Assembly: GCA_003139735.1 (NCBI GenBank)
Contig: PLGA01000579.1
Span: 17,820-30,251 of the forward strand
From: Bryobacterales bacterium
GTDB lineage: Bacteria > Acidobacteriota > Terriglobia > Bryobacterales > Bryobacteraceae
Reading direction: 5' to 3'
Length of the DNA: 12,432 bases
Notes under the pieces: generated by a model
Databases searched by the model: none
What the model saw: the letters and a program-made list of their open reading frames with translations, nothing else
Told to the model about the DNA's origin: nothing
Shown: positions 2,077-12,416 of the stretch, one piece after another
Numbering within the stretch: the stretch's first letter is position 1
Layout of the letters: the number at the start of each line of letters is the position of its first letter
Position numbers and translations under genes: made by a program

Positions 2077-2340
2077 CTAACGGCTCTGTTGCATCATCAG
2101 TTGTCTAAGGTAGGCGTTGATTCGAGTTTGATACCCTTCGCCCGATGCTTTTATCCACGCTACTACATCCGCATCCAGGCGAATGGTCACCGTGGTTTTC
2201 TTTGGCCGATAAAATTTTCCAATCACGGCATCCGAAGGAATCTCCCGAATTTCAGGGATATCCGTCAGGTCGATTTCATGGTCCGGCCGGGCAGCGAGCT
2301 TCTGAAGCTCCTTTCGTTTCTCAGCCGATAGCTTGGGCAT
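2077..2340 (-). CDS. brnA: BrnA family antitoxin
   Basis: The product is 87 residues from the ATG at 2340. The start was chosen because AAGGAAG lies just upstream, and because the longer version (GTG at 2397) only adds codons that overlap the toxin gene. The N-terminal half (residues 1-45) is charged and contains DLTDIPEIREIPSDAVIGKF, a form typical of the toxin-binding part of BrnA. The C-terminal half (about 48-85) is the DNA-binding part, with TTVTIRLDADVVAWIKASG followed by GYQTRINAYLRQLM, matching the BrnA (COG3514) ribbon-helix-helix signature. In this family the antitoxin binds and blocks the RNase toxin BrnT and represses its own operon. It overlaps the brnT remnant by 20 bases, the usual toxin-first order. 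All key segments are present, so it should still fold and bind DNA. Confidence 0.9.
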   Translation of the reverse strand: MPKLSAEKRKELQKLAARPDHEIDLTDIPEIREIPSDAVIGKFYRPKKTTVTIRLDADVVAWIKASGEGYQTRINAYLRQLMMQQSR

Positions 2341-2512
2341 ATAGCTTCCTTTCTCGCCGGGTCGCAGGACGCCAACGTTCTTCGCCATCCGTGACACGCT
2401 CTACAAACGTCACGCAGCAGGGATCGTCGAAAACGAGTTGCGCTGTTTCAAAATCGATGCCATGCTTCGTTTGGTTGATATCGTTTTTCGCCCGATCCCA
2501 TTCGACGCGCAT
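2321..2512 (-). pseudogene. brnT: BrnT family toxin with an in-frame internal deletion
   Basis: The 63-codon frame starts like a normal BrnT (MRVEWDRAKNDINQTKHGI, then FETAQLVFDDP and an acidic DGEERW) and ends like one (ATRRERKLY). Family members are usually about 90 residues. Between EERW and ATRRER they carry roughly 25-30 residues that form the central beta-strands and end in a conserved I-R-I-I-S-A-R-type segment. Here W47 is followed directly by R-P-A-T-R-R-E-R, so that block is missing and the frame is kept. BrnT proteins have a RelE-like fold and cleave RNA. Losing the central sheet should abolish activity, so this is most likely a disarmed toxin. The deletion is inferred from memory of the family, not from an alignment run. 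The ATG at 2512 immediately follows the promoter/operator. Confidence 0.8.
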
Positions 2513-2700: not shown

Positions 2701-4452
2701 GTGAAGCTTACGGAAGCGCTCAAGATACTGCAGCAGGCGCCGGAGAATGCTCCGCCTTTCCATGTAGCCTTGGCTTGCGGGTATACCCCATTACACGTAG
2801 AGACTTTCCTGGGGGCGCATCTGCAACAGCGGCTGGCGGATCGGCGGGTGACGATTTCGACGGGGGTGTACGGCGATGTGCCCGGGACTTTGGCGGGTTT
2901 GAAAGACGCTGCCGCGCACGGTGTAGCCGTTCCCTTGGAATGGGCGGACCTGGACCCGCGGTTGGGCTACCGGGAAGCGGGCAACTGGGGCATCAAGGCC
3001 TTGCCAGGCATCATTTCGGGCGCAATGGCCGTGTTAGACCGGATTGCCGCGGCGGTTGAAGAAATACGGCTGGACATTCCCGTGGCCGTCTGTCTGCCCA
3101 GCTTGCCGCTGCCCCCCATTTTCCACACGGCGGGTTGGCAGGCCGCGGAAGCTCAGTTGGCGCTTGATCGAAAAGTGGCCGAATTCGCTTCCCGGATCGG
3201 GCGCCGATGCTCCCTGGTCAACTCCGCGCGATTGGCCGAAGATTCACCCCCGGGGGAGCGCTACGACCTGAAATCAGATTTGCTGACCGGCTTGCCGTAC
3301 ACGCTGCCGCACGCCGCGGCGGTAGCTTCGGCGTTGTCGCGCCTGCTGGCGCCGCCGCTTCCCAAGAAGGGCCTGATTACGGACCTGGATAATACCTTGT
3401 GGCGCGGCATAGCGGGCGAGATCGGTCCGGAGAACGTAAGCTGGGATCTGGCGAGCCATTCGCAACTGCATGGGTTGTACCAGAAGCTTCTGGCGGCCCT
3501 GGCCGAGGAAGGCGTGCTGATCGGGGCCGCCAGCAAGAACGATCCGGCGGTGGTCCAGCGGGTTTTCGAGCGGGAGGACCTGCTCTTGCGGCCGGACCGT
3601 ATTTTCCCACTGGAGGTACATTGGAGCGCCAAGTCCGGCTCAATCGAACGGATCTTGCGGACCTGGAATATCTCGGCGGACGACGTGGTTTTTGTGGACG
3701 ACAGCGCAATGGAACTGGCCGAGGCCGCCTACGCGCATCCGGGGATGGAGTGCCTTTTGTTCCCGACGAACGATTACGCCGCGGCCTATGCGCTGCTGCG
3801 GCGCCTGCGCGACCTGTTTGGGAAGCCTCGCGTCTCCGAGGAGGACGCCATTCGTCTCGAAAGCATCCGCCAAAGCGCTCCCTTTCAAGCGGCGTCCGGC
3901 GAATCGACTTCGGAAACGTTCCTACAGGAAGCCGAAGCCGTCGTTACGTTCGATTTTCCGGCCGGCAACGACCCACGGGCTTTGGATCTGGTCAATAAGA
4001 CGAATCAATTCAACCTGAACGGCATACGCTATCAAGAAGCCGATTGGAAGAACCGGCGGACGCGTCCGGGAGCGTTCCTGGTGATTGTCAGTTATCGGGA
4101 TAAGTTCGGCCCGCTGGGAAAGATCGCGGTGCTCGATGGGCGGCAGGAGAATGACAACCTTTTTATCGACACGTGGGTCATGAGCTGCCGCGCATTTTCC
4201 CGCCGCATCGAGCATCAATGTCTAGAGGCGATGTTCGACCGCTGCGCGGCCCGGGAGATCTTCTTCGATTTCCGGCCCACGCCAAAAAACGGCCCGCTCC
4301 AGGATTTTTTGGCGTCGGTCTCCGGCCGGCGGCCCGATGCGCCTTTCCGCCTGAACCGCGCCCTGTTTGAGGAGAAACGCCCGCGGCTTTATCATCGCGT
4401 CACGGAATCCCCCACGAGTTCAAATTCATGGATCACATCGCGCTCCGCTTAA
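2701..4452 (+). CDS. FkbH-like HAD-IIIC family protein (predicted acyl-ACP forming enzyme)
   Basis: The protein has 583 residues from a GTG preceded by AGGT. Residues 1-205 form the N-terminal domain common in long FkbH-like proteins. Residues 222-375 are the HAD core: motif I LITDLDNTLWRG with D228 and D230, motif II GAASKN with S278, motif III Lys at WSAKSGS (K311), and motif IV VFVDDS with D333/D334. Residues 400-583 are the C-terminal acyltransferase-like domain, with VNKTNQFNLNG and TWVMSCRAFSRRIEH. In characterised FkbH-type enzymes of macrolide pathways, the protein takes a glyceryl unit from 1,3-bisphosphoglycerate, removes phosphate and loads it on an ACP as a thioester. An ACP gene overlaps its 3' end by 25 bases, which strongly supports an ACP-linked role here. 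No polyketide synthase is visible. The acyl group actually made (glyceryl or another three-carbon unit) is inferred, not shown. Confidence 0.9.
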   Translation: MKLTEALKILQQAPENAPPFHVALACGYTPLHVETFLGAHLQQRLADRRVTISTGVYGDVPGTLAGLKDAAAHGVAVPLEWADLDPRLGYREAGNWGIKALPGIISGAMAVLDRIAAAVEEIRLDIPVAVCLPSLPLPPIFHTAGWQAAEAQLALDRKVAEFASRIGRRCSLVNSARLAEDSPPGERYDLKSDLLTGLPYTLPHAAAVASALSRLLAPPLPKKGLITDLDNTLWRGIAGEIGPENVSWDLASHSQLHGLYQKLLAALAEEGVLIGAASKNDPAVVQRVFEREDLLLRPDRIFPLEVHWSAKSGSIERILRTWNISADDVVFVDDSAMELAEAAYAHPGMECLLFPTNDYAAAYALLRRLRDLFGKPRVSEEDAIRLESIRQSAPFQAASGESTSETFLQEAEAVVTFDFPAGNDPRALDLVNKTNQFNLNGIRYQEADWKNRRTRPGAFLVIVSYRDKFGPLGKIAVLDGRQENDNLFIDTWVMSCRAFSRRIEHQCLEAMFDRCAAREIFFDFRPTPKNGPLQDFLASVSGRRPDAPFRLNRALFEEKRPRLYHRVTESPTSSNSWITSRSA

Positions 4453-4670
4453 CAAATTGTTTTCAAACGGTGTTTCCGCATCTGCCCGAAGGGGAGATTG
4501 CGGCCGCCAGCCAAACGAACGTGGCGGCCTGGGACTCCGTCGCCGCCATCACCCTGGTCAACGTGATCGAGGAAGAATTCGGAATCGAGATGGATCTCGA
4601 TCAGCTCGCGGACCTGGATTCCTTCAGCCGCATCGAGGAATATCTGAACCGGGAAATGCCACTCTCGTGA
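4428..4670 (+). CDS. Acyl carrier protein
   Basis: An 80-residue acidic protein with the size and helical pattern of an ACP. The attachment site is S37 within AAWDSVAAITLVNVIEEEFG. The Asp-Ser pair and the following hydrophobic/acidic helix II are diagnostic for 4'-phosphopantetheine attachment, although the more usual DSL is DSV here. The final helix DSFSRIEEYLNR also fits. The ATG lies 25 bases inside the FkbH-like gene, with no strong ribosome site, so translation is probably coupled. Its stop TGA overlaps the next GTG. Stand-alone ACPs paired with FkbH enzymes (FkbJ in the methoxymalonyl-ACP pathway) hold the glyceryl or derived unit, and the same job is inferred here. It is unlikely to be the fatty-acid synthesis ACP, which has a more canonical DSL motif and sits among fab genes. 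Confidence 0.92.
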   Translation: MDHIALRLTNCFQTVFPHLPEGEIAAASQTNVAAWDSVAAITLVNVIEEEFGIEMDLDQLADLDSFSRIEEYLNREMPLS

Positions 4671-5095
4671 CTGCGACAAGCGCGGGTTTGAAGCTCCACC
4701 ATTTCGGATTCGTGGTTGCGGATATTGCGGCAGGCATGGCGGGCTTCACGCGCTCGCTGGCGGCGCATTGGGACGGCCGCCTCTACGACGATCCACTCCA
4801 GAAAGTGAAGGTGGCCTTCCTGACGACGCGTCCGGGCGACGCGCAGATCGAGCTGGTGCAGCCGAACGCGGAAGACTCTCCCGTCACCCGTTTCCTCAGG
4901 GAGAAAGGCGGCGGGTTCCATCACGTCTGTTACGAAGTTGCGGACCTCGAGGAAGAGATGGCGGGAATGAAATCGCGCGGGGCGCTGATCGCCAGGCGTC
5001 CGAAGCCGGCGGTGGCGTTCGAGGGACGCCGCATCGCCTGGATGCTCACGGCGGAGAAGATGCTGGTAGAGTTGCTCGAACGACAAGCCGAATGA
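4667..5095 (+). CDS. VOC family protein resembling methylmalonyl-CoA epimerase
   Basis: The product has 142 residues from the GTG at 4667, whose GTGA overlaps the ACP stop, so it is the last gene of a coupled three-gene operon. An upstream extension of the frame to 4367 is only antisense-free read-through of the neighbours and was not used. The fold is two beta-alpha-beta-beta-beta modules of the vicinal oxygen chelate type. Residues at metal-ligand positions by motif are H12 (LHHFGFVV), E62 (QIELVQP), H86 (FHHVCYEV) and E135 (LVELLE). This set resembles methylmalonyl-CoA epimerase more than glyoxalase I. The enzyme family moves a proton next to a thioester carbonyl through a bound metal. Next to FkbH and ACP, it might change the configuration of the ACP-bound acyl group. 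This substrate assignment is inference, and other VOC chemistry (isomerase, lyase) remains possible. Confidence 0.85.
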   Translation: MTATSAGLKLHHFGFVVADIAAGMAGFTRSLAAHWDGRLYDDPLQKVKVAFLTTRPGDAQIELVQPNAEDSPVTRFLREKGGGFHHVCYEVADLEEEMAGMKSRGALIARRPKPAVAFEGRRIAWMLTAEKMLVELLERQAE

Positions 5096-5130: not shown

Positions 5131-5253
5131 CACCGCCGAGGCGCCGAGGCGCGGAGAAAACCGTTTAAAGAATTAGGGCTCGGTTTGCATCCAAATACGC
5201 GCTCTTCCCGAGGTTCGTGCGCAGAGGAAGCGGAGGGCGCGGAGTAACGCAAA
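5131..5253 (+). repeat. Left copy of a ~123-bp dispersed repeat flanking hipBA
   Basis: The unit starts with CACCGCCGAGGCGCCGAGGC, a tandem of the 8-mer CCGAGGCG, then GGAGAAAACCGTTTAA. It ends with GTGCGCAGAGGAAGCGGAGG followed by GCGCGGAGTAACGCAAA. The second copy is at 7006-7127. The two outer parts are almost identical and the ~35-bp centre has diverged. The unit lies 35 bases after the VOC stop and 12 bases from the end of hipA. I see no coding potential in it. Confidence 0.85.
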
Positions 5254-5265
5254 TCTGACGCGGCT

Positions 5266-6564
5266 TCACCGAGTTGCCGGACGCGGTTGAACCATCCTTC
5301 GCGCCGGCGAGCAAAGGGATAGCGCAGCCTTCAGATCTTCATGGTCGAATGCGGACGCCATGCGGTCGATGTCCGCCGGAGTGAGGCCGAGTTTGGCCGC
5401 CTGTCTTCGCCACCTCGCAACCGCCCTCCCGGTCTCCCCTGCGATTCGATGGGCTTCGCCCTCTTCCAGATCGAAATAACCGGCGACTTGAAGCGCCAAC
5501 TTCAGGGAAGCGGCGTCGTCGTCAAGATCGATCGTGGTGGACAGAACCCGCGGCTTGATGTCGGTGGGAACCGGATTGAGGTCGTAGGCCGGGGACAGCC
5601 GCCACCCGGACGGACCCGCCCACAAGAAGCCGTGATTGCGCAAATGATCGTCCGTGTTTGAAATCAGGATGCTGAACACGATCCGGCGCCAGAGGGCGCG
5701 CATGTCTTCCTTCGGGGCTGCGCCATGTTGGCGGAGAACGTCGACGAATTCCAGATAGCTCCGCGCCTCGCCGTCTTTGGCGTCGAGCATGCTCATGGCC
5801 GATAGGAACGGAACACGCATCCCGCCGTCCCTGTCGAAACGGCGCAGCAAGAGAATGGACTTGCCGGCCACAGTTTCGAGCCGCCATGCGGGCACGGCGA
5901 TACCGGCCACCGCTGCGAGCGTCAGGGCCAGAGCCTCCCAGAGGACCGTATTCACCTCGTCCCCCTTGTTGGGAAACTTAGCGATCGCGAGATGGCCATC
6001 GCGATCCCGGACCGATGCTTTTGGGCGGGCGCCGCCGAGCGATGAGCCCGGCGCAAGCAGCAGGCGCAAATCCTCGTCGGTGTCGGTGTCGCTCAGAACG
6101 CGTTCGACGGCCGAGAGCAGTCGCGGCAGCTCAATCAGGGGCGGGATCCGTTGCGGGCCGGGCGCGGCCAGAAACGGTCCGCCTTCCCGCTCGGCGAAAC
6201 GGAGCGCGCCCTGGCGCGCCTCATCGTCCACCGTAAGCAGATAGTCGATTTCCCGGACGGTGCGCGGTGCGCGGCCCTCATGTTCGGCGCGCCGGCGCTC
6301 AGCGCGCCGCATCAGAACCCGTCCCCATCGATCGGGGGCGGAATCGCCGATAGCGCCGAAAAGCGGTTTGCCGGAAGGCGCATGAAACGGTCCCGGCCCT
6401 AGCTGAAGGGCCGGTTCGAGCGAGAAACGCTCGGAATGAGCGAGCCAGCCTTTGTCGTATTCAAAAGTTGCGCTCTCCCTGTCCTTGCGCAGGCGCGCCC
6501 AAAGCCGCCCCACCAACTGGGGCGCGCCTTGGAGATCTACGTATACTAGAACTTCCTTTTCCAT
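5266..6564 (-). CDS. hipA: HipA family serine/threonine kinase toxin
   Basis: The product has 432 residues, close to E. coli HipA in length, and seems intact. The N-terminal coupling subdomain spans about residues 5-110 (VLVYVDLQGAPQLVGRL). The kinase part carries the flexible serine loop SSLGGARPKAS (174-184, matching the autophosphorylated Ser150 region of E. coli HipA) and the ATP lysine in AIAKFP (K196). It also has the catalytic loop SNTDDHLRNHG with D305 and N310, and the metal-binding Asp in SPAYDLNP (D328). In this family the kinase phosphorylates targets such as glutamyl-tRNA synthetase and stops growth until restrained by HipB. The ATG shares one base with the hipB stop (TAATG), so the two are translationally coupled. 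All recognisable active-site residues are present. It lies opposite to the polysaccharide genes and has no evident role in them. Confidence 0.93.
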   Translation of the reverse strand: MEKEVLVYVDLQGAPQLVGRLWARLRKDRESATFEYDKGWLAHSERFSLEPALQLGPGPFHAPSGKPLFGAIGDSAPDRWGRVLMRRAERRRAEHEGRAPRTVREIDYLLTVDDEARQGALRFAEREGGPFLAAPGPQRIPPLIELPRLLSAVERVLSDTDTDEDLRLLLAPGSSLGGARPKASVRDRDGHLAIAKFPNKGDEVNTVLWEALALTLAAVAGIAVPAWRLETVAGKSILLLRRFDRDGGMRVPFLSAMSMLDAKDGEARSYLEFVDVLRQHGAAPKEDMRALWRRIVFSILISNTDDHLRNHGFLWAGPSGWRLSPAYDLNPVPTDIKPRVLSTTIDLDDDAASLKLALQVAGYFDLEEGEAHRIAGETGRAVARWRRQAAKLGLTPADIDRMASAFDHEDLKAALSLCSPARRMVQPRPATR

Positions 6565-6902
6565 TACTCTGCACCCGGCTCCTCGCGACGGCGCGAGAGT
6601 CGAATGCGTTGAGGCAGGTTCTCCTCTTCAAGAGCAAGCCCGACCGCATCGTGCCGGGGGTCAGCCACGTCGGCGAGCCGATCGACCATTCCCAGGGCGA
6701 ACAGAACGGTGGCGTAAGCGCCGAGCGAGACGCCGGGGTCGCCCTTCTCCGCCTTGTTCAATGTCGTCCGGCTAATGGAAGCGCGCTCCGCCAGTATCGC
6801 GACGGGGATCCGGCGGCGGCGGCGCGCATCGCGAATGTCGCTGCCGAGTTTTCTGAGAGATCGGCGTACAGGCACCGGGACCGCTGAGGAGGCCTGGTTC
6901 AT
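6564..6902 (-). CDS. hipB: HipB-like antitoxin, XRE-type helix-turn-helix regulator
   Basis: The product has 112 residues from the ATG at 6902; a GTG at 6914 would add four residues and sits in the operator. Residues about 17-72 form the XRE/Cro helix-turn-helix: LGSDIRDARRRRRIPVAILA, then ASISRTTLNKAEKGDPGVS as the turn and recognition helix, then LGAYATVLFALGM. The C-terminal tail (85-112) is charged, as in HipB proteins whose tail contacts the kinase. In this family the protein neutralises HipA and represses the operon. Gene order hipB-hipA with a one-base overlap is the usual type II arrangement. No strong SD precedes either start, and the ATG overlaps TATAATG, so the exact start is uncertain. 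Confidence 0.9.
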   Translation of the reverse strand: MNQASSAVPVPVRRSLRKLGSDIRDARRRRRIPVAILAERASISRTTLNKAEKGDPGVSLGAYATVLFALGMVDRLADVADPRHDAVGLALEEENLPQRIRLSRRREEPGAE

Positions 6903-6966
6903 TATAACGTCCACTATAGGTTACGTTCCACGCCTTAATGTACATATTTATGGACGTAACAGTCAA
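6903..6966 (-). promoter_or_regulatory. hipBA promoter and operator sites
   Basis: On the - strand, TTGACT (6966-6961) and TACATT (6942-6937) are separated by 18 bases, placing the transcript start near 6930. Two inverted half-sites frame this promoter: GTTACGTTCC at 6920-6929 and GGACGTAAC at 6952-6960. A further AACGTCC lies at 6906-6912 inside TATA-N8-TATA (6903-6918), a shape like the E. coli HipB operator (TATCC-N8-GGATA). The arrangement fits cooperative autorepression by HipB. The region is AT-rich compared with its neighbours. Confidence 0.5.
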
Positions 6967-7005: not shown

Positions 7006-7127
7006 CACCGCCGAGGCGCCGAGGCGTGGAGAAAACCGTTTAAGAAATGGGGTGGTTTGGCATTGGAGTATGTGCTCTTCCCCGAGGGTCGTGCGCAGAG
7101 GAAGCGGAGGGCGCGGAGTAACGCAAA
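7006..7127 (+). repeat. Right copy of the ~123-bp repeat flanking hipBA
   Basis: The same unit as 5131-5253, in direct orientation. The first ~38 bases differ by one substitution (T at 7027) from the left copy. The last ~50 bases, from about GTGCTCTTCCC to GTAACGCAAA, are nearly identical, and the centre is diverged. Together the two copies bracket the whole hipBA module with its promoter. From 6967 to 7005 I see nothing further. Confidence 0.85.
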
Positions 7128-7231: not shown

Positions 7232-7960
7232 TTGGCTAACGCCTTTGTTCTGAAAATCAAGCGCGGCGAAACGCCGTTCTATCGCGGGTTGGGGACTTTG
7301 GCGAAGAGGCTTCAGACCGGCATTCTGCCCGTGCCCCGCTTTTTTAATCCGGTGCTGCGTCCGCTCTTTTACCTCCATCAGGCGGTGTGGAGGGGAATGC
7401 TTTGGGCCGCCGGATATTTCTATATCGGGCCGGTGTTCCGCAGCCGGTGCGCCTCGATAGGCCGGCGATTCCATATTTCCCGGATGCCTTTCGTGGTGGG
7501 CCACGCAAAGATTTGCATTGGGAACAACGTGAACTTCTTCGGGAAGGTGGACATCTTCAGCGGCCGGATGTTCGACGAACCGACGCTGACGATCGGGGAC
7601 CGGGTCGATATCGGCCACAACGTGGTCTTCGTGGTGAATCGGGAGATTGTCATCGAAGAAGACGTGAACGTGGCCAGCGGCGTCCGCTTTATGGACTCGG
7701 ACGCGCACCCCAGGGACGCCGCGGAGCGCATCGCGGACCTGCCGCCGCGCCTGGAGGAGATCAAGCCCGTGCGAATTTGCCGGCGGGCGTGGATCGGGCA
7801 GAATGCGTTTATTCTCAAGGGCGTCACCATCGGAGAAGGCGCCGTGGTGGGGGTCAACAGCGTGGTGGTTTCCGATATCCCTCCCTATGCGGTCGCCATG
7901 GGCAATCCCGCCAGGGTCGTGGTGAAGGCGCAGCCCCGGACCGTTGACGCCGGGAGATGA
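7232..7960 (+). CDS. Left-handed beta-helix O-acyltransferase, WbbJ/WcaF type
   Basis: The product has 242 residues from TTG 7232. Residues 1-85 form a positively charged, partly hydrophobic N-terminal region (PRFFNPVLRPLFYLHQAVWR). From residue 93 on, hexapeptide repeats of the LbH fold are visible: KICIGNNVNFFGKVDIF, LTIGDRVDIGHNVVFV and IVIEEDVNVASGVRF. The catalytic-type histidine is H159 in MDSDAHPRD. The C-terminal coils (RICRRAWIGQNAFILKGVTI, then GEGAVVGVNSVV and the hallmark AMGNPARVV) match sugar O-acetyltransferases such as WbbJ and WcaF. These normally move acetyl from acetyl-CoA to a sugar hydroxyl of an exopolysaccharide or O-antigen. The gene overlaps the next one by ATGA and heads the acyltransferase-methyltransferase-flippase group. 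Because an orphan acyl-ACP system lies upstream, an ACP-linked donor is a possible alternative, but this is inference. Confidence 0.9.
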   Translation: MANAFVLKIKRGETPFYRGLGTLAKRLQTGILPVPRFFNPVLRPLFYLHQAVWRGMLWAAGYFYIGPVFRSRCASIGRRFHISRMPFVVGHAKICIGNNVNFFGKVDIFSGRMFDEPTLTIGDRVDIGHNVVFVVNREIVIEEDVNVASGVRFMDSDAHPRDAAERIADLPPRLEEIKPVRICRRAWIGQNAFILKGVTIGEGAVVGVNSVVVSDIPPYAVAMGNPARVVVKAQPRTVDAGR

Positions 7961-8697
7961 CGACGAACATCCAGGTTCGGATTCTGAAAGCCATCTGTCC
8001 GGTAGCGGCGGATTTTCCTAGTGAAAGCTTCTACCAGGGGAAATCGAAACTGGCCATCCAGTGCGGGGAGGATTTTTTCGACAGGATCGCGGGGAAAACC
8101 GTGATCGACTTCGGGTGCGGCGAAGGGGACGATGCCATTGAAATGGCTCGAAGGGGCGCGCGGCGGGTGATCGGTTTCGAAATTCGCGAGGAGCTCATCG
8201 AGACCGCCCGGAGGAAGGCCCTCGCCGCGGGTGTTTCCGAGACTTGTTCCTTCGAGTCTTCGACCAAGGAACTCGCGGATATCGTCATTTCCCTGGACGC
8301 CTTCGAGCATTTCGCCGACCCGGCTGAAATCCTGCGCATCATGAACGCGCTTCTCGAACCGGCGGGCGAGGCATTCATCAGCTTCGGGCCGCCCTGGCAT
8401 CACCCCTTGGGCGGACATATCTTTTCGGTTTTTCCATGGGCCCATCTGATATTCAGCGAGAAGGCCCTGATGCGTTGGAGATCCACTTTTAAGACGGATG
8501 GGGCGACGCGTTTCGGAGAGGTGGCCGGCGGGCTGAACCAAATGACCATCAAGAGGTTCACCGGGTTAATTCAGGGCAGCGGCTTCGAGATCGCCCGCCT
8601 GGAACTTGTGCCCATCCGGAAACTCCGGCTGTTTCACAACCGCCTGACGCGCGAGTTTACTACGGCGGCCGTGCGCTGCCGTTTGGTCAAACGGTAA
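7957..8697 (+). CDS. Class I SAM-dependent methyltransferase
   Basis: The product has 246 residues from ATG 7957, overlapping the acyltransferase stop as ATGA, which implies coupled translation. The Rossmann-like core is clear: motif I TVIDFGCGEG (residues 48-57), the acidic end of strand 2 in VIGFEIREE, the strand 4 region DIVISLDAFEHFADP (108-122, Methyltransf_11 type), then the helix LRIMNALLEPAGEAFISFGPP. The C-terminal region (150-246) is aromatic and basic (HIFSVFPWAHLIF) and may form the acceptor site. Similar enzymes are common in polysaccharide loci, where they O-methylate a sugar, a terminal residue or an acyl side group. Which acceptor is used cannot be told from the sequence. The flippase follows 47 bases later on the same strand. 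Confidence 0.9.
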   Translation: MTTNIQVRILKAICPVAADFPSESFYQGKSKLAIQCGEDFFDRIAGKTVIDFGCGEGDDAIEMARRGARRVIGFEIREELIETARRKALAAGVSETCSFESSTKELADIVISLDAFEHFADPAEILRIMNALLEPAGEAFISFGPPWHHPLGGHIFSVFPWAHLIFSEKALMRWRSTFKTDGATRFGEVAGGLNQMTIKRFTGLIQGSGFEIARLELVPIRKLRLFHNRLTREFTTAAVRCRLVKR

Positions 8698-8744: not shown

Positions 8745-10268
8745 ATGGGGTTCAATCGAATGCCGGAACCTTCCTCAGGGAGCACCACCGCGACCGTTGT
8801 GACGGGCGCGAGTTGGAGCGCAGTAACCCGCGTCGGCCTGCAACTTTTCTCGGTGGCGAGCGCAACCGTTCTGGCGCGGTTCGTCTCGCAGCGGGCGTAC
8901 GGTCTGGCCGGAATGGCGCAAGTGGTGATCGGTTTCGCCGCGTTATTCGGCAGTCTGGGCACCTCCAACGCGATCATCCGGCAGAAGGATCTCGACGACG
9001 ATGTGCTCACGAGCATTTTCTGGCTGACTCTCGCGATTGGCGTTTGCGTGACCGTCGCCTGTTTTCTGAGCGCTCCTTATGTCGCGAAGTTTTACAACGA
9101 ACCATCGCTGCCGGGTATTTTTCGAGCGCTCGGCCTCTACTTTACGATCAGCGCCACGGCGAGCGTACACGGGGCCCTCATGAACCGCGACCTTCAGTTC
9201 GCGCGGATGGCGGTGGTGGATCTGGTGGCCGGGGCCACGTCGGCGACGGTTGGCATTGTGAGCGCGGTGCTGGGCGCGGGCGTCTGGAGCCTCATTACCG
9301 GGGCCCTGGCGAACGCCGTGGTCACGGCGGGCCTGTATATTACGCTTAACCCCTGGCGGCCATCCCTGCGCTTCTCATTCCGGCGGCTGGGGCCGGTGCT
9401 CGGCTTCGGGCTGAACCTCTCAGGATCCAACATCGTCAATTACTTCAGCCGCAACACCGATAACTTGCTTATCGGGAAATACCTGGGGGCCGTCCCGCTA
9501 GCCTATTACAACTGGGGATACACGTTGATGCTGTATCCGCTGCAAGCCATCAGTTGGACGCTAGGGCGGGTTCTATTTCCGACTTTCTCGCTGATGCAGG
9601 ACGATCCGGAACGTTTTCAGCGCGCGTACTTGCGAGCCTGCGCGACGGTTGCGTTCGTGACATTCCCGCTGATGGCCGGCGTAACGGCGCTGGCGCCGGA
9701 GTTTATCGTGGCGCTGCTAGGTCCGAACTGGGCCCCCGTGGCGCCTATTCTGCGGATTTTGGCGCCGGTGGGACTGTTGCAATCGATCACCTCGCTGACC
9801 GGATACATTTACATGGCGATGGGGAAGACGGACCTCATGTTCCGATGGGGCCTGTTATTCACCGGGCTTACGGTTGCGGGGTTTGCCCTGGGCCTGCATT
9901 GGGGAATCGCCGGCGTGGCAACCTCTTATGCGATCGTCACGCTGCTCACGCTGATCCCCGTGTTTTGGATCCCGTTCCAGTTGATTCGCCTGCGGATTCG
10001 GGATCTTTGGATTGCGCTATGGCCGGTCACTCGCGCGACCGCCGCGATGGCCATCGCGACGGCGGCGTTCCGGCGGATGGTGATGGGATGGGTACACCTC
10101 CCGCCGGGCCTTGCGCTGCTGGTTTTCGTTCCTTTTGGCGCGGCCGTCTACTTCGCCACAATGTACTGGCTGAGCAGGCCGCTGTTGATGGATCTGATTT
10201 CGCTGGCTCGCGCCGGGCTGGGCATATTCGGGCGGGGAAAATTCCGCGCGGCAAGCACGACGAGCTGA
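8745..10268 (+). CDS. Wzx-type polysaccharide flippase (MOP/MATE-like superfamily)
   Basis: The product has 507 residues and about 12-14 predicted membrane segments, starting with ASWSAVTRVGLQLFSVASAT (22-41) and continuing to VFVPFGAAVYFATMYW near 460-475. The segment FSRNTDNLLIGKYLGAVPLA (234-253), followed by YYNWGYTLMLYPLQ and LFPTFSLMQDDPERFQRAY (277-295), is typical of WzxC-like lipopolysaccharide biosynthesis flippases. Such proteins move undecaprenyl-diphosphate-linked oligosaccharide units across the inner membrane. The soluble N-terminus is short. The start is ATG 8745; an in-frame ATG at 8760 is equally possible, since neither has a clear SD. The gene ends the + strand group, and its product would export the unit modified by the two upstream enzymes. 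No Wzy polymerase is visible in the window. Confidence 0.92.
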   Translation: MGFNRMPEPSSGSTTATVVTGASWSAVTRVGLQLFSVASATVLARFVSQRAYGLAGMAQVVIGFAALFGSLGTSNAIIRQKDLDDDVLTSIFWLTLAIGVCVTVACFLSAPYVAKFYNEPSLPGIFRALGLYFTISATASVHGALMNRDLQFARMAVVDLVAGATSATVGIVSAVLGAGVWSLITGALANAVVTAGLYITLNPWRPSLRFSFRRLGPVLGFGLNLSGSNIVNYFSRNTDNLLIGKYLGAVPLAYYNWGYTLMLYPLQAISWTLGRVLFPTFSLMQDDPERFQRAYLRACATVAFVTFPLMAGVTALAPEFIVALLGPNWAPVAPILRILAPVGLLQSITSLTGYIYMAMGKTDLMFRWGLLFTGLTVAGFALGLHWGIAGVATSYAIVTLLTLIPVFWIPFQLIRLRIRDLWIALWPVTRATAAMAIATAAFRRMVMGWVHLPPGLALLVFVPFGAAVYFATMYWLSRPLLMDLISLARAGLGIFGRGKFRAASTTS

Positions 10269-10838: not shown

Positions 10839-12416
10839 TTATCCGCCGCCCGACGCCGGCAGCGGCTGCAGATCGACCCGGAAAATGTCAAAATTGCCCG
10901 CCTTGCCCAACCAGGAGAAGCGCGCGGAGGAGTGCTTCTGCAAATATAGGAATTGCCATTCCAAAGGGGCGGCCACTTCGCCGAGGACCGCCATATACCA
11001 GTGGGTATGGGTGGCCCTATAGGAATCGAAGGGAAGAATCCTGGCCTGCGTGAGACCGGGGAGAAGGGCAAAGCTTATTTCAAGAGAGTCACAGCCCACT
11101 TCGGCGGCCGCCTTAGTAGTGTCGAAGAGATAGACCAGATTATTGGACGGGTCGAGGCGGTTCCTTTCGTACAACGGCAGAAAGTGGTGCGCGGAAAGGA
11201 CGGCAATATCCGGATTGGGTTCGGGAATCCTGCTGCGGAACTCTTCCAAGCTGGGGTAAGCATCTTGCGGCCTCCAGAATCCTGAAATCCCGCGCGCGGT
11301 CACCATCAGGCCGTTGGCGAGAAGAGCAAGGAAGAGGCAGAGGCCAATGGTCCGGTTGCGGCCGGTAAGGATGGCGAGCAGCAAGGGCAGTCCCAAGACC
11401 ACTCCGAAAACGGCGAGCATGTGGTAGTAAGGCACAAAGAAGCCCGTGTACAAGGCTCCAATCGCATAGCCGACCACCGGAAGCAGCAGGGCGCCGGCCG
11501 CGGCGGCGAGAAGGGCGCGCGGAGGTTCGGCAGGCGGCTCAGTTTGGGAAACCGCGTCTTCACCAAGACCGCCGGGCAGCAGCGCCATGAGTATGAGCAA
11601 TAGCAGGAACAGGGCCATCGGCAAGCTTTCGATCTCATTGCCGTAAAAGTCGTACAGATTCTTGAAGGCCGTTGGGAAAAAATAATTCTGCGTGAAAAGG
11701 TGCTTGGCGTTAATGAGGATGGGACTCCAGAACAGGTACGGGATGAGGCCCAGGGCGATGGAGAACAAGGTCGCCCAGTCCAGGCGCTTGCGCACAATCC
11801 ATTTCGCCAGTTCTCCGCAGGCCAGCGGAAACAGGAGCAGGATGCTGTAAAAATGCGTCGAAAAGGCGGCCATCAGGCTGAGCGTCAGAGCAATCCGCCA
11901 GGCGGTTTTACGGGACGAGCGCTGGATGCCATCCCAACAAAACAGAGCCAAGGCGCTGCAACCCATCATGGCGGCGTAGGGCCGCACCTGCATGGCCCAG
12001 CCACGGACTAAGGTGGCATAAGGGAAAAAGAACGCGGCCGCGGCGTAAACCGGCGGAGCGTGGCGCTTCACCAATAGACTGACGCAAACGCAAAGCAAGG
12101 TGAAGGAGGCAATTGCGGGGAACTCGGCCAGATACCAATGTTCCCCGAACAGCCGAAAGACGAAGTGGACGGCCGTATCGATAACCGGCGGATCGACCTG
12201 AATTCCACCTTTGAGCGCGCGCCAGATGGCGCCGGCGCTGGCTTGGCGCATGACGATCATGGCGAGCACGTCGTCGCTCAAGAGGGGCCGCACGTGGGCA
12301 TAGCCGCTGAATGTCAGCAAACTCAGCGTGGAAGCCGCGATGAGATAGCGGCGCCAGTGGGCATCGAGCCAGCCGTTCCACAGCAAGGCAAGTTCGTTGA
12401 GCCGGTTGGATCTCAT
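10839..12416 (-). CDS. GT-C family membrane glycosyltransferase (ArnT/PMT-like)
   Basis: The product has 525 residues from ATG 12416. The upstream frame is open to the window edge, so a start outside the window cannot be excluded. The N-terminus has a short cytosolic part, one membrane helix (YLIAASTLSLLTFSGYA) and then the periplasmic acidic pair SDDV (D48/D49), placed as the catalytic Asp of GT-C enzymes. It is followed by the family pattern QVDPPVIDTAVHFVFRLFGE and about ten more membrane segments. The C-terminal ~150 residues are soluble and periplasmic. Such enzymes use polyprenyl-phosphate sugars and glycosylate lipid or glycan acceptors outside the inner membrane. The gene is convergent with the flippase, ends in TAATAA, and fits the same polysaccharide locus. 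The sugar and acceptor cannot be deduced. Assignment to the PMT_2-like group is by pattern, not by search. Confidence 0.85.
   Translation of the reverse strand: MRSNRLNELALLWNGWLDAHWRRYLIAASTLSLLTFSGYAHVRPLLSDDVLAMIVMRQASAGAIWRALKGGIQVDPPVIDTAVHFVFRLFGEHWYLAEFPAIASFTLLCVCVSLLVKRHAPPVYAAAAFFFPYATLVRGWAMQVRPYAAMMGCSALALFCWDGIQRSSRKTAWRIALTLSLMAAFSTHFYSILLLFPLACGELAKWIVRKRLDWATLFSIALGLIPYLFWSPILINAKHLFTQNYFFPTAFKNLYDFYGNEIESLPMALFLLLLILMALLPGGLGEDAVSQTEPPAEPPRALLAAAAGALLLPVVGYAIGALYTGFFVPYYHMLAVFGVVLGLPLLLAILTGRNRTIGLCLFLALLANGLMVTARGISGFWRPQDAYPSLEEFRSRIPEPNPDIAVLSAHHFLPLYERNRLDPSNNLVYLFDTTKAAAEVGCDSLEISFALLPGLTQARILPFDSYRATHTHWYMAVLGEVAAPLEWQFLYLQKHSSARFSWLGKAGNFDIFRVDLQPLPASGGG

Follow-up and report, generated by a model that had tools for sequence, protein, structure and literature searches.

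An FkbH-ACP-VOC gene cassette in Bryobacteraceae and its possible role in acyl-ACP-dependent glycan decoration

A stretch of 12,432 nucleotides from a Bryobacterales bacterium of the family Bryobacteraceae (contig C194, PLGA01000579.1, positions 17820-30251), hereafter the window, carries overlapping genes for an FkbH-like protein, a stand-alone acyl carrier protein (ACP) and a protein of the VOC superfamily. Genome mining generally treats FkbH-ACP pairs as genes for polyketide precursors. Here the gene order, the overlaps, the conserved catalytic residues, the lack of a nearby ketosynthase and the recurrence of the arrangement in relatives are observed directly, and they point to a different use in which an ACP-borne acyl group probably decorates a glycan. 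The complete mechanism proposed below, an acyl-ACP-dependent glycan decoration cassette, is held with moderate confidence.

Genes of the cassette

The FkbH-like gene (2701..4452, plus strand, GTG start) encodes 583 amino acids with an N-terminal alpha/beta domain, a HAD-IIIC phosphatase domain and a C-terminal domain with the SCR cysteine. It belongs to the TIGR01686 family, scoring 217.6 bits against a cut-off of 146.65. Residues D228, D230, T232, S278, K311, D333, D334 and C496 do not vary in an alignment of 30 sequences, two of them FkbHs of KASIII or polyketide synthase clusters, with which the window protein thus has in common what are presumably the HAD catalytic motifs and the SCR cysteine. 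Among 46 rows of the FkbH subfamily described below, fragments included, S278 and D334 are each found in 45, and C496 in 45 with a gap in the remaining row. The AlphaFold2 model has a pLDDT of 85.4 and its closest PDB structure is 3slr.

The ACP gene (4428..4670, plus strand, 80 amino acids) matches PF00550 with 29.2 bits against a cut-off of 20.8, and its phosphopantetheine serine, S37, lies in a WDS motif that all 40 ACPs aligned from FkbH loci have. The VOC gene (4667..5095, plus strand, 142 amino acids), whose product is proposed to be an acyl-ACP epimerase, matches PF13669 with 72 bits (cut-off 27) and has H12, E62, H86 and E135 as candidate metal ligands. FkbH and ACP overlap by 25 bases, and ACP and VOC by four (GTGA), just as the preliminary description had it. 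The 25-base overlap is found again in a genome of the same genus (G170, locus L040) and in loci L006 and L041, and is therefore not due to chance.

A fourth gene belongs to this arrangement in relatives. In G170 FkbH, ACP, VOC and LbH follow one another in this order, each overlapping the next (by 25, 4 and 4 bases); LbH is a left-handed beta-helix (hexapeptide) acyltransferase, 73% identical to that of the window. In L010, L043, L047 and L049 VOC is likewise followed by LbH, at a distance of -1 to 55 bases, and in all five loci (gaps -4 to 55 bases) nothing lies in between. This agrees with the earlier suggestion that the acyl-ACP genes are linked to an acyltransferase of this type. The window LbH gene (7232..7960, plus strand, about 242 amino acids) has an estimated start; the position near 7232 given by the gene caller is the most likely one, and the longest open reading frame begins at 7052. 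Its product belongs to the hexapeptide family PF00132 (36 bits, cut-off 27), and H159 is found in all 11 family rows of at least 225 amino acids.

The VOC-LbH junction of the window is occupied by a hipBA-like toxin-antitoxin module (5266..6914, minus strand) between two direct repeats of about 122 bases (left copy 5131..5253 and right copy 7006..7127, both plus strand). The larger gene matches HipA_C (PF07804) with 160.6 bits and the small gene matches HTH_31 below the cut-off. The repeat occurs, nearly complete, four more times in the host genome, on contigs C641, C639, C533 and C31. The module is apparently an insertion that has split VOC from LbH.

Downstream of LbH, overlapping it by four bases, is a gene for an S-adenosylmethionine-dependent methyltransferase (7957..8697, plus strand, PF13489), followed by a Wzx-type MOP flippase gene (8745..10268, plus strand) that matches PF13440 with 285 bits and NF007773 above the cut-off. 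The acyltransferase, methyltransferase and flippase that the preliminary description listed downstream are thus supported by Pfam matches, whereas its GT-C glycosyltransferase label for the 525-amino-acid protein at 10839..12416 (minus strand) is unverified, this protein having no match in Pfam or NCBIfam.

The earlier claim that no ketosynthase is present holds for the whole window contig: PF00109 has six matches in the host genome (82% complete), all on other contigs, and the model fires on the positive controls, namely ketosynthase stretches of the host genome and ketosynthase-bearing plasmid loci. No KASIII or dehydrogenase was found among the 10 window proteins scanned. The cassette resembles the tetronate and methoxymalonyl-ACP pathways (tetromadurin Mad7/Mad8 and Mad14/Mad12; FK520) in having an FkbH above the TIGR01686 cut-off and an adjoining stand-alone ACP of the WDS type. 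It differs from them in that no ketosynthase, KASIII or dehydrogenase was found in the window, which has VOC and LbH instead, and in the conservation of the N-terminal domain of FkbH.

Occurrence in the order and on plasmids

FkbH matches at E<=0.001 are common in the order, being found in 127 of 200 genomes, but the subfamily to which the window protein belongs is narrow. At E<=1e-60, corresponding to about 42-66% identity, it is present in 39 of the 200 genomes, and in a sample of 297 Acidobacteriota genomes it was found in three, the host's own included. Forty-five subfamily loci were read up to about 9 kb on either side of FkbH: the window, four of the five loci of one search and 40 further loci. 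Locus L009 was left out, being identical to L050, and two genomes (G142 and G064) contribute two loci each. Several of the 45 loci stop at contig ends and some of the FkbH genes are cut.

At a distance of up to 1.5 kb from FkbH, 35 of the 45 loci have an ACP and 16 a VOC gene, the latter number rising to 17 at 9 kb. LbH is found within 9 kb in 18 loci, a ketosynthase in none and KASIII in one. By these counts the subfamily does not belong with polyketide cassettes of the methoxymalonyl-ACP/tetronate type, and the description of the window as an acyl-ACP supply without a polyketide synthase extends to its relatives. The 17 loci with the FkbH-ACP-VOC trio include 10 with LbH, seven with a flippase and none with a ketosynthase. 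Twelve of them have a glycosyltransferase, flippase, deacetylase or AsnB gene, a number that rises to 15 when LbH is counted too; some of the glycosyltransferase matches are weak (34-48 bits), and L069 is counted on such matches alone. Within the order the trio is therefore neither mostly associated with polyketide synthases nor mostly found without glycan genes. The association with nearby LbH and Wzx genes that had been anticipated is seen when glycan genes or LbH are counted, and only partly when LbH and flippase are required together.

As a control, 21 generic FkbH loci of the order, about 30% identical to the window protein (20 hand-picked loci and L005), were read. They have ACP in six cases, MBOAT in three, and no VOC, LbH or ketosynthase. 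At E<=0.01 three of them have a VOC-like open reading frame about 6-7 kb from FkbH and one has a weak LbH match. The models for LbH, GNAT, flippase and glycosyltransferase were built from families of the subfamily loci, and the absence of these genes from the 21 generic loci is biased accordingly. Fisher values calculated on the locus counts disregard relatedness and carry no weight here.

Other genes take the next position in some subfamily loci: MaoC-SDR fusions, GNAT-like proteins (the GNAT18 model is without Pfam support and enters none of the counts given here), an FkbM methyltransferase or a flippase. In L045 a Polysacc_synt flippase gene begins four bases after VOC, and in L046 a flippase gene begins five bases after FkbH and precedes LbH, with no ACP found at that locus. 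The loci can be read as a constant FkbH-ACP loader pair combined with exchangeable tailoring and transfer genes. One cluster, L053 (G135:C195), has two subfamily FkbH genes together with ACP-like, VOC, LbH and deacetylase genes. The sole subfamily locus with a KASIII match, L073 (G079:C602), also has MaoC-SDR fusions and may make a longer acyl group.

The glycan setting of the window extends upstream. The contig starts with an 11-kb stretch, about 10-20 kb upstream of FkbH, that encodes an AsnB-like protein, a PgaB-like polysaccharide deacetylase, an FkbM methyltransferase and another LbH protein, as well as two glycosyltransferases that resemble TIGR03087 and TIGR03088 of XrtA systems at scores below the cut-offs. 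An exosortase gene is on another contig.

In addition, 15 plasmid FkbH loci were inspected, one per genus, hand-picked from 106 and 117 records; that of Sinorhizobium was reached via a VOC search. A ketosynthase is present in five (Methylosinus, Pseudalkalibacillus, Streptomyces, Burkholderia and Niallia), where the VOC model has no match, an annotated VOC protein 3.6 kb away in Burkholderia being likewise unmatched. None was found in the other ten (Paludibaculum, Sinorhizobium, Rhodobacteraceae SC52, Paroceanicella, Tistrella, Niveispirillum, Maritalea, Rahnella, Aquisphaera and Subdoligranulum). Three of these ten, all alphaproteobacterial, have VOC together with FkbH-ACP. The order is ACP-FkbH-MBOAT-hypothetical-VOC-LbH on the SC52 plasmid, where VOC and LbH overlap by four bases as in G170, ACP-FkbH-methyltransferase-VOC in Paroceanicella and VOC-MBOAT-x-ACP-FkbH on pSymB of S. 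meliloti. Paludibaculum belongs to the same family as the host, and genome G105 contains the plasmid of P. fermentans. This 55-kb plasmid carries FkbH and an ACP-VOC pair, separated by about 19 kb.

MBOAT genes are near FkbH in Paludibaculum, Sinorhizobium, SC52 and Tistrella, which suggests, by analogy with D-alanylation, a variant in which the acyl group would cross the membrane. In the Dlt system a small acyl group bound to a carrier protein (DltC) is likewise destined for an envelope polymer with the help of the MBOAT protein DltB; the loader here would be FkbH instead. A search of the host genome with PF03062 (MBOAT) gave no match, the genome being 82% complete.

Proposed pathway and alternatives

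According to PMC7489565, formation of glyceryl-ACP from 1,3-bisphosphoglycerate is assigned to FkbH-like proteins in tetronate and methoxymalonyl polyketide pathways. In the pathway proposed for the window, FkbH would take the glyceryl group of 1,3-bisphosphoglycerate and load it onto the dedicated ACP. The VOC protein, with a bound metal, would then deprotonate the carbon beside the thioester and convert D- to L-glyceryl-ACP before transfer. LbH would pass the acyl group on from the carrier protein to a sugar or a lipid-linked glycan, acylating a hydroxyl or amine there. O-methylation of the acyl group or the sugar may be the task of the methyltransferase, and Wzx would export the decorated glycan. 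We infer the glyceryl nature of the acyl group, the epimerisation at C2, the transfer by LbH and the identity of the acceptor. That the acyl group derives from a glyceryl unit is rather likely; that the VOC protein epimerises or isomerises the acyl group on the ACP is a tentative assignment that may well be right.

A parallel is offered by Campylobacter jejuni, whose flagellin glycan locus also has an fkbH gene (cj1302) and an annotated epimerase gene (cj1301) and is likewise linked to a glycan. The phylum and the sugar context are different, and Cj1301 is known as an epimerase by annotation only. In PMC7099621, strain 11168 is reported to carry dimethylglyceric acid on flagellin pseudaminic acid, and this acid was not detected in strain 12664, where cj1302 is a pseudogene, nor in strain 12661, which lacks cj1301. 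These data fit an FkbH-dependent glyceric acid on a glycan, and the analogy is suggestive only. The FkbH-ACP-VOC-LbH combination was not found described in the literature searched, most subscription journals being outside the search. At the Maritalea plasmid locus FkbH is near pseB, a gene of the N-acetylneuraminate synthase family and a gene for a DUF4910 protein, presumably of the Cj1295 family.

Several observations weigh against the proposed pathway. The VOC gene is absent from 28 of the 45 subfamily loci, and its presence is scattered on the FkbH tree, with 13 changes, at least 10 of them forced, compared with a mean of 14.3 when presence is shuffled (141 of 500 shuffles were as low). In L006 and L041 FkbH-ACP is joined to LbH by a mere 17 bases at the position of VOC, although FkbH of L041 shares 84% identity with the FkbH of L043, a locus that does have VOC. 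It follows that VOC is an optional tailoring gene of the family. LbH and flippase occur together in only four of the 17 trio loci, in the window LbH has become separated from the trio, and LbH resembles acetyltransferases of the acetyl-CoA type (WbbJ, LacA and Mat), which are not proven users of acyl-ACP. The VOC proteins of SC52 and Paroceanicella lack two signatures of the Bryobacteraceae proteins, the DPxQ motif and PAVAFxGRRIAW, and look closer to methylmalonyl-CoA epimerase at these positions. In Campylobacter, the gene shown to be necessary for dimethylglyceric acid is cj1295, according to PMC3068675, and the comparison concerns three strains with other differences in the locus, from which the authors draw no link to fkbH in the available part of PMC7099621. 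Thus the original idea of a three-carbon acyl group passed from ACP to a glycan gains from the missing polyketide synthase, the glycan linkage and LbH as fourth gene, and loses from the rare joint occurrence of LbH and flippase and from the restriction of VOC to 17 of 45 loci.

The VOC protein could instead be an ordinary methylmalonyl-CoA epimerase or a glyoxalase that is a neighbour by chance, leaving a cassette of FkbH-ACP-LbH only. This is unlikely, even though the VOC fold and the H/E/H/E residues are common to the window protein and methylmalonyl-CoA epimerase. The AlphaFold2 model (pLDDT 94.6) has its best structural matches in 3hdp, a Clostridium protein annotated as glyoxalase I, and 2qh0, followed by methylmalonyl-CoA epimerases, and the absence of VOC from most loci and the epimerase-like signature region in SC52 and Paroceanicella are also in favour of this alternative. 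On TIGR03081 (methylmalonyl-CoA epimerase), however, the window protein scores 62.1 bits, far below the cut-off of 114.95, and the host genome has a separate protein above the cut-off on contig C323 (134 bits). Judged by sequence, the window protein is thus not the housekeeping epimerase. A chance neighbourhood is also made less likely by the four-base overlap with ACP in the window, and with both ACP and LbH in G170, by the finding that 16 of the 45 subfamily loci and none of the 21 generic loci have VOC at 1.5 kb or less from FkbH, and by its recurrence with FkbH-ACP in three alphaproteobacterial loci.

The difference from the epimerases is also seen in single residues when 22 VOC rows from FkbH loci (L009 and L050 representing the same genome) are compared with 29 epimerases, 27 of them above the TIGR03081 cut-off from genomes of the order and two annotated in mutase operons. 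Of the candidate metal ligands, E62, H86 and E135 are found in all 22 rows and H12 in 21, the remaining row having a gap. In the DPxQ motif D42 is conserved in 19, P43 in 20 and Q45 in 19 of the 22, and the PAVAFxGRRIAW signature is carried by most rows. Phe118 is present in 19 of 22, whereas 24 of the 29 epimerases have Ala at this position and the S. coelicolor enzyme has Ser115. The VOC proteins of SC52 and Paroceanicella, without the Bryobacteraceae signatures and with no firm placement in the VOC tree, are perhaps separate recruitments.

Many close homologues of the VOC protein, among the best 120 of 863 in JGI data, are automatically named methylmalonyl-CoA/ethylmalonyl-CoA epimerase. 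The name would count for an ordinary epimerase, and it is probably wrong for these proteins. A missing catalytic glutamate was considered as a discriminator and dropped. E43 of the S. coelicolor enzyme, placed with the help of the E43L and wild-type sequences, aligns with Val49 of the window protein, but human, Aureimonas and Ilyobacter proteins also lack Glu at this position, so that Val49 is uninformative.

Equally improbable is a scheme in which FkbH loads a glyceryl group and the VOC protein performs another reaction, such as an isomerisation of the glyoxalase type, so that the acyl group would no longer be glyceryl. The top structural match, 3hdp, and the H/E/H/E metal-ligand pattern, which glyoxalase I and the epimerases have in common, are compatible with it. 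MaoC-SDR fusions follow FkbH-ACP in other loci, and the acyl group is therefore probably varied within the family. On the other hand, none of the scanned window proteins is a dehydrogenase that could make an oxidised intermediate.

It is very improbable that the cassette supplies methoxymalonyl- or glyceryl-ACP to polyketide or tetronate genes in another part of the genome. Such a role is assigned to FkbH/ACP pairs in an actinomycete polyether tetronate cluster (PMC7489565), the plasmid clusters of Methylosinus, Pseudalkalibacillus, Streptomyces NBC_00523 and Burkholderia pair FkbH with a ketosynthase or KASIII, and the host genome has the six PF00109 matches on other contigs. Against this stand the lack of a ketosynthase in all 45 subfamily and 21 generic FkbH loci, the scanned window proteins, which include neither a KASIII nor a dehydrogenase, and the VOC model, which has no match at the Methylosinus, Pseudalkalibacillus, Streptomyces, Niallia and Burkholderia loci.

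A wider form of the glycan decoration proposal is possible but rather doubtful. In this form the VOC protein would epimerise 2-hydroxyacyl-ACP, an activity new to the VOC proteins, and so turn D- into L-glyceryl-ACP, and FkbH-ACP-VOC-LbH would be an exchangeable module in several phyla that channels a glycolytic intermediate into surface glycans with stereo-defined (O-methyl)glyceryl groups, the dimethylglyceric acid of Campylobacter and the MBOAT versions being branches of it. If glycan decoration is the true function, both the polyketide-precursor label of FkbH-ACP and the methylmalonyl-CoA epimerase label of VOC are misleading, a glycolytic intermediate would serve generally as the source of acyl groups on glycans, and there would be named candidate genes for the dimethylglyceric acid of Campylobacter flagellin.

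Other families and flanking genes

Three further protein families recur as neighbours of FkbH in the subfamily loci: F12 (about 369 amino acids; L064, L065, L068 and L077), F11 (about 534 amino acids; L064, L069, L071 and L074) and F19 (about 360 amino acids; L067, L070 and L072). With one representative of each, a PDB sequence search gave no match for F12 and F11 and no convincing match for F19, and the F12 and F19 representatives had no match in Pfam.

A PADLOC search gave weak matches only. Directly upstream of the FkbH operon is a BrnTA toxin-antitoxin pair (2077-2512, minus strand), whose BrnT reading frame covers only 44 of 77 profile positions. Toxin-antitoxin pairs are found just upstream of the FkbH operon in two other genomes as well, BrnTA in G061 (L050:8292-8904, minus strand) and Phd with PIN in G170 (L040:8320-8936, minus strand), and the region around the operon may behave as an island.

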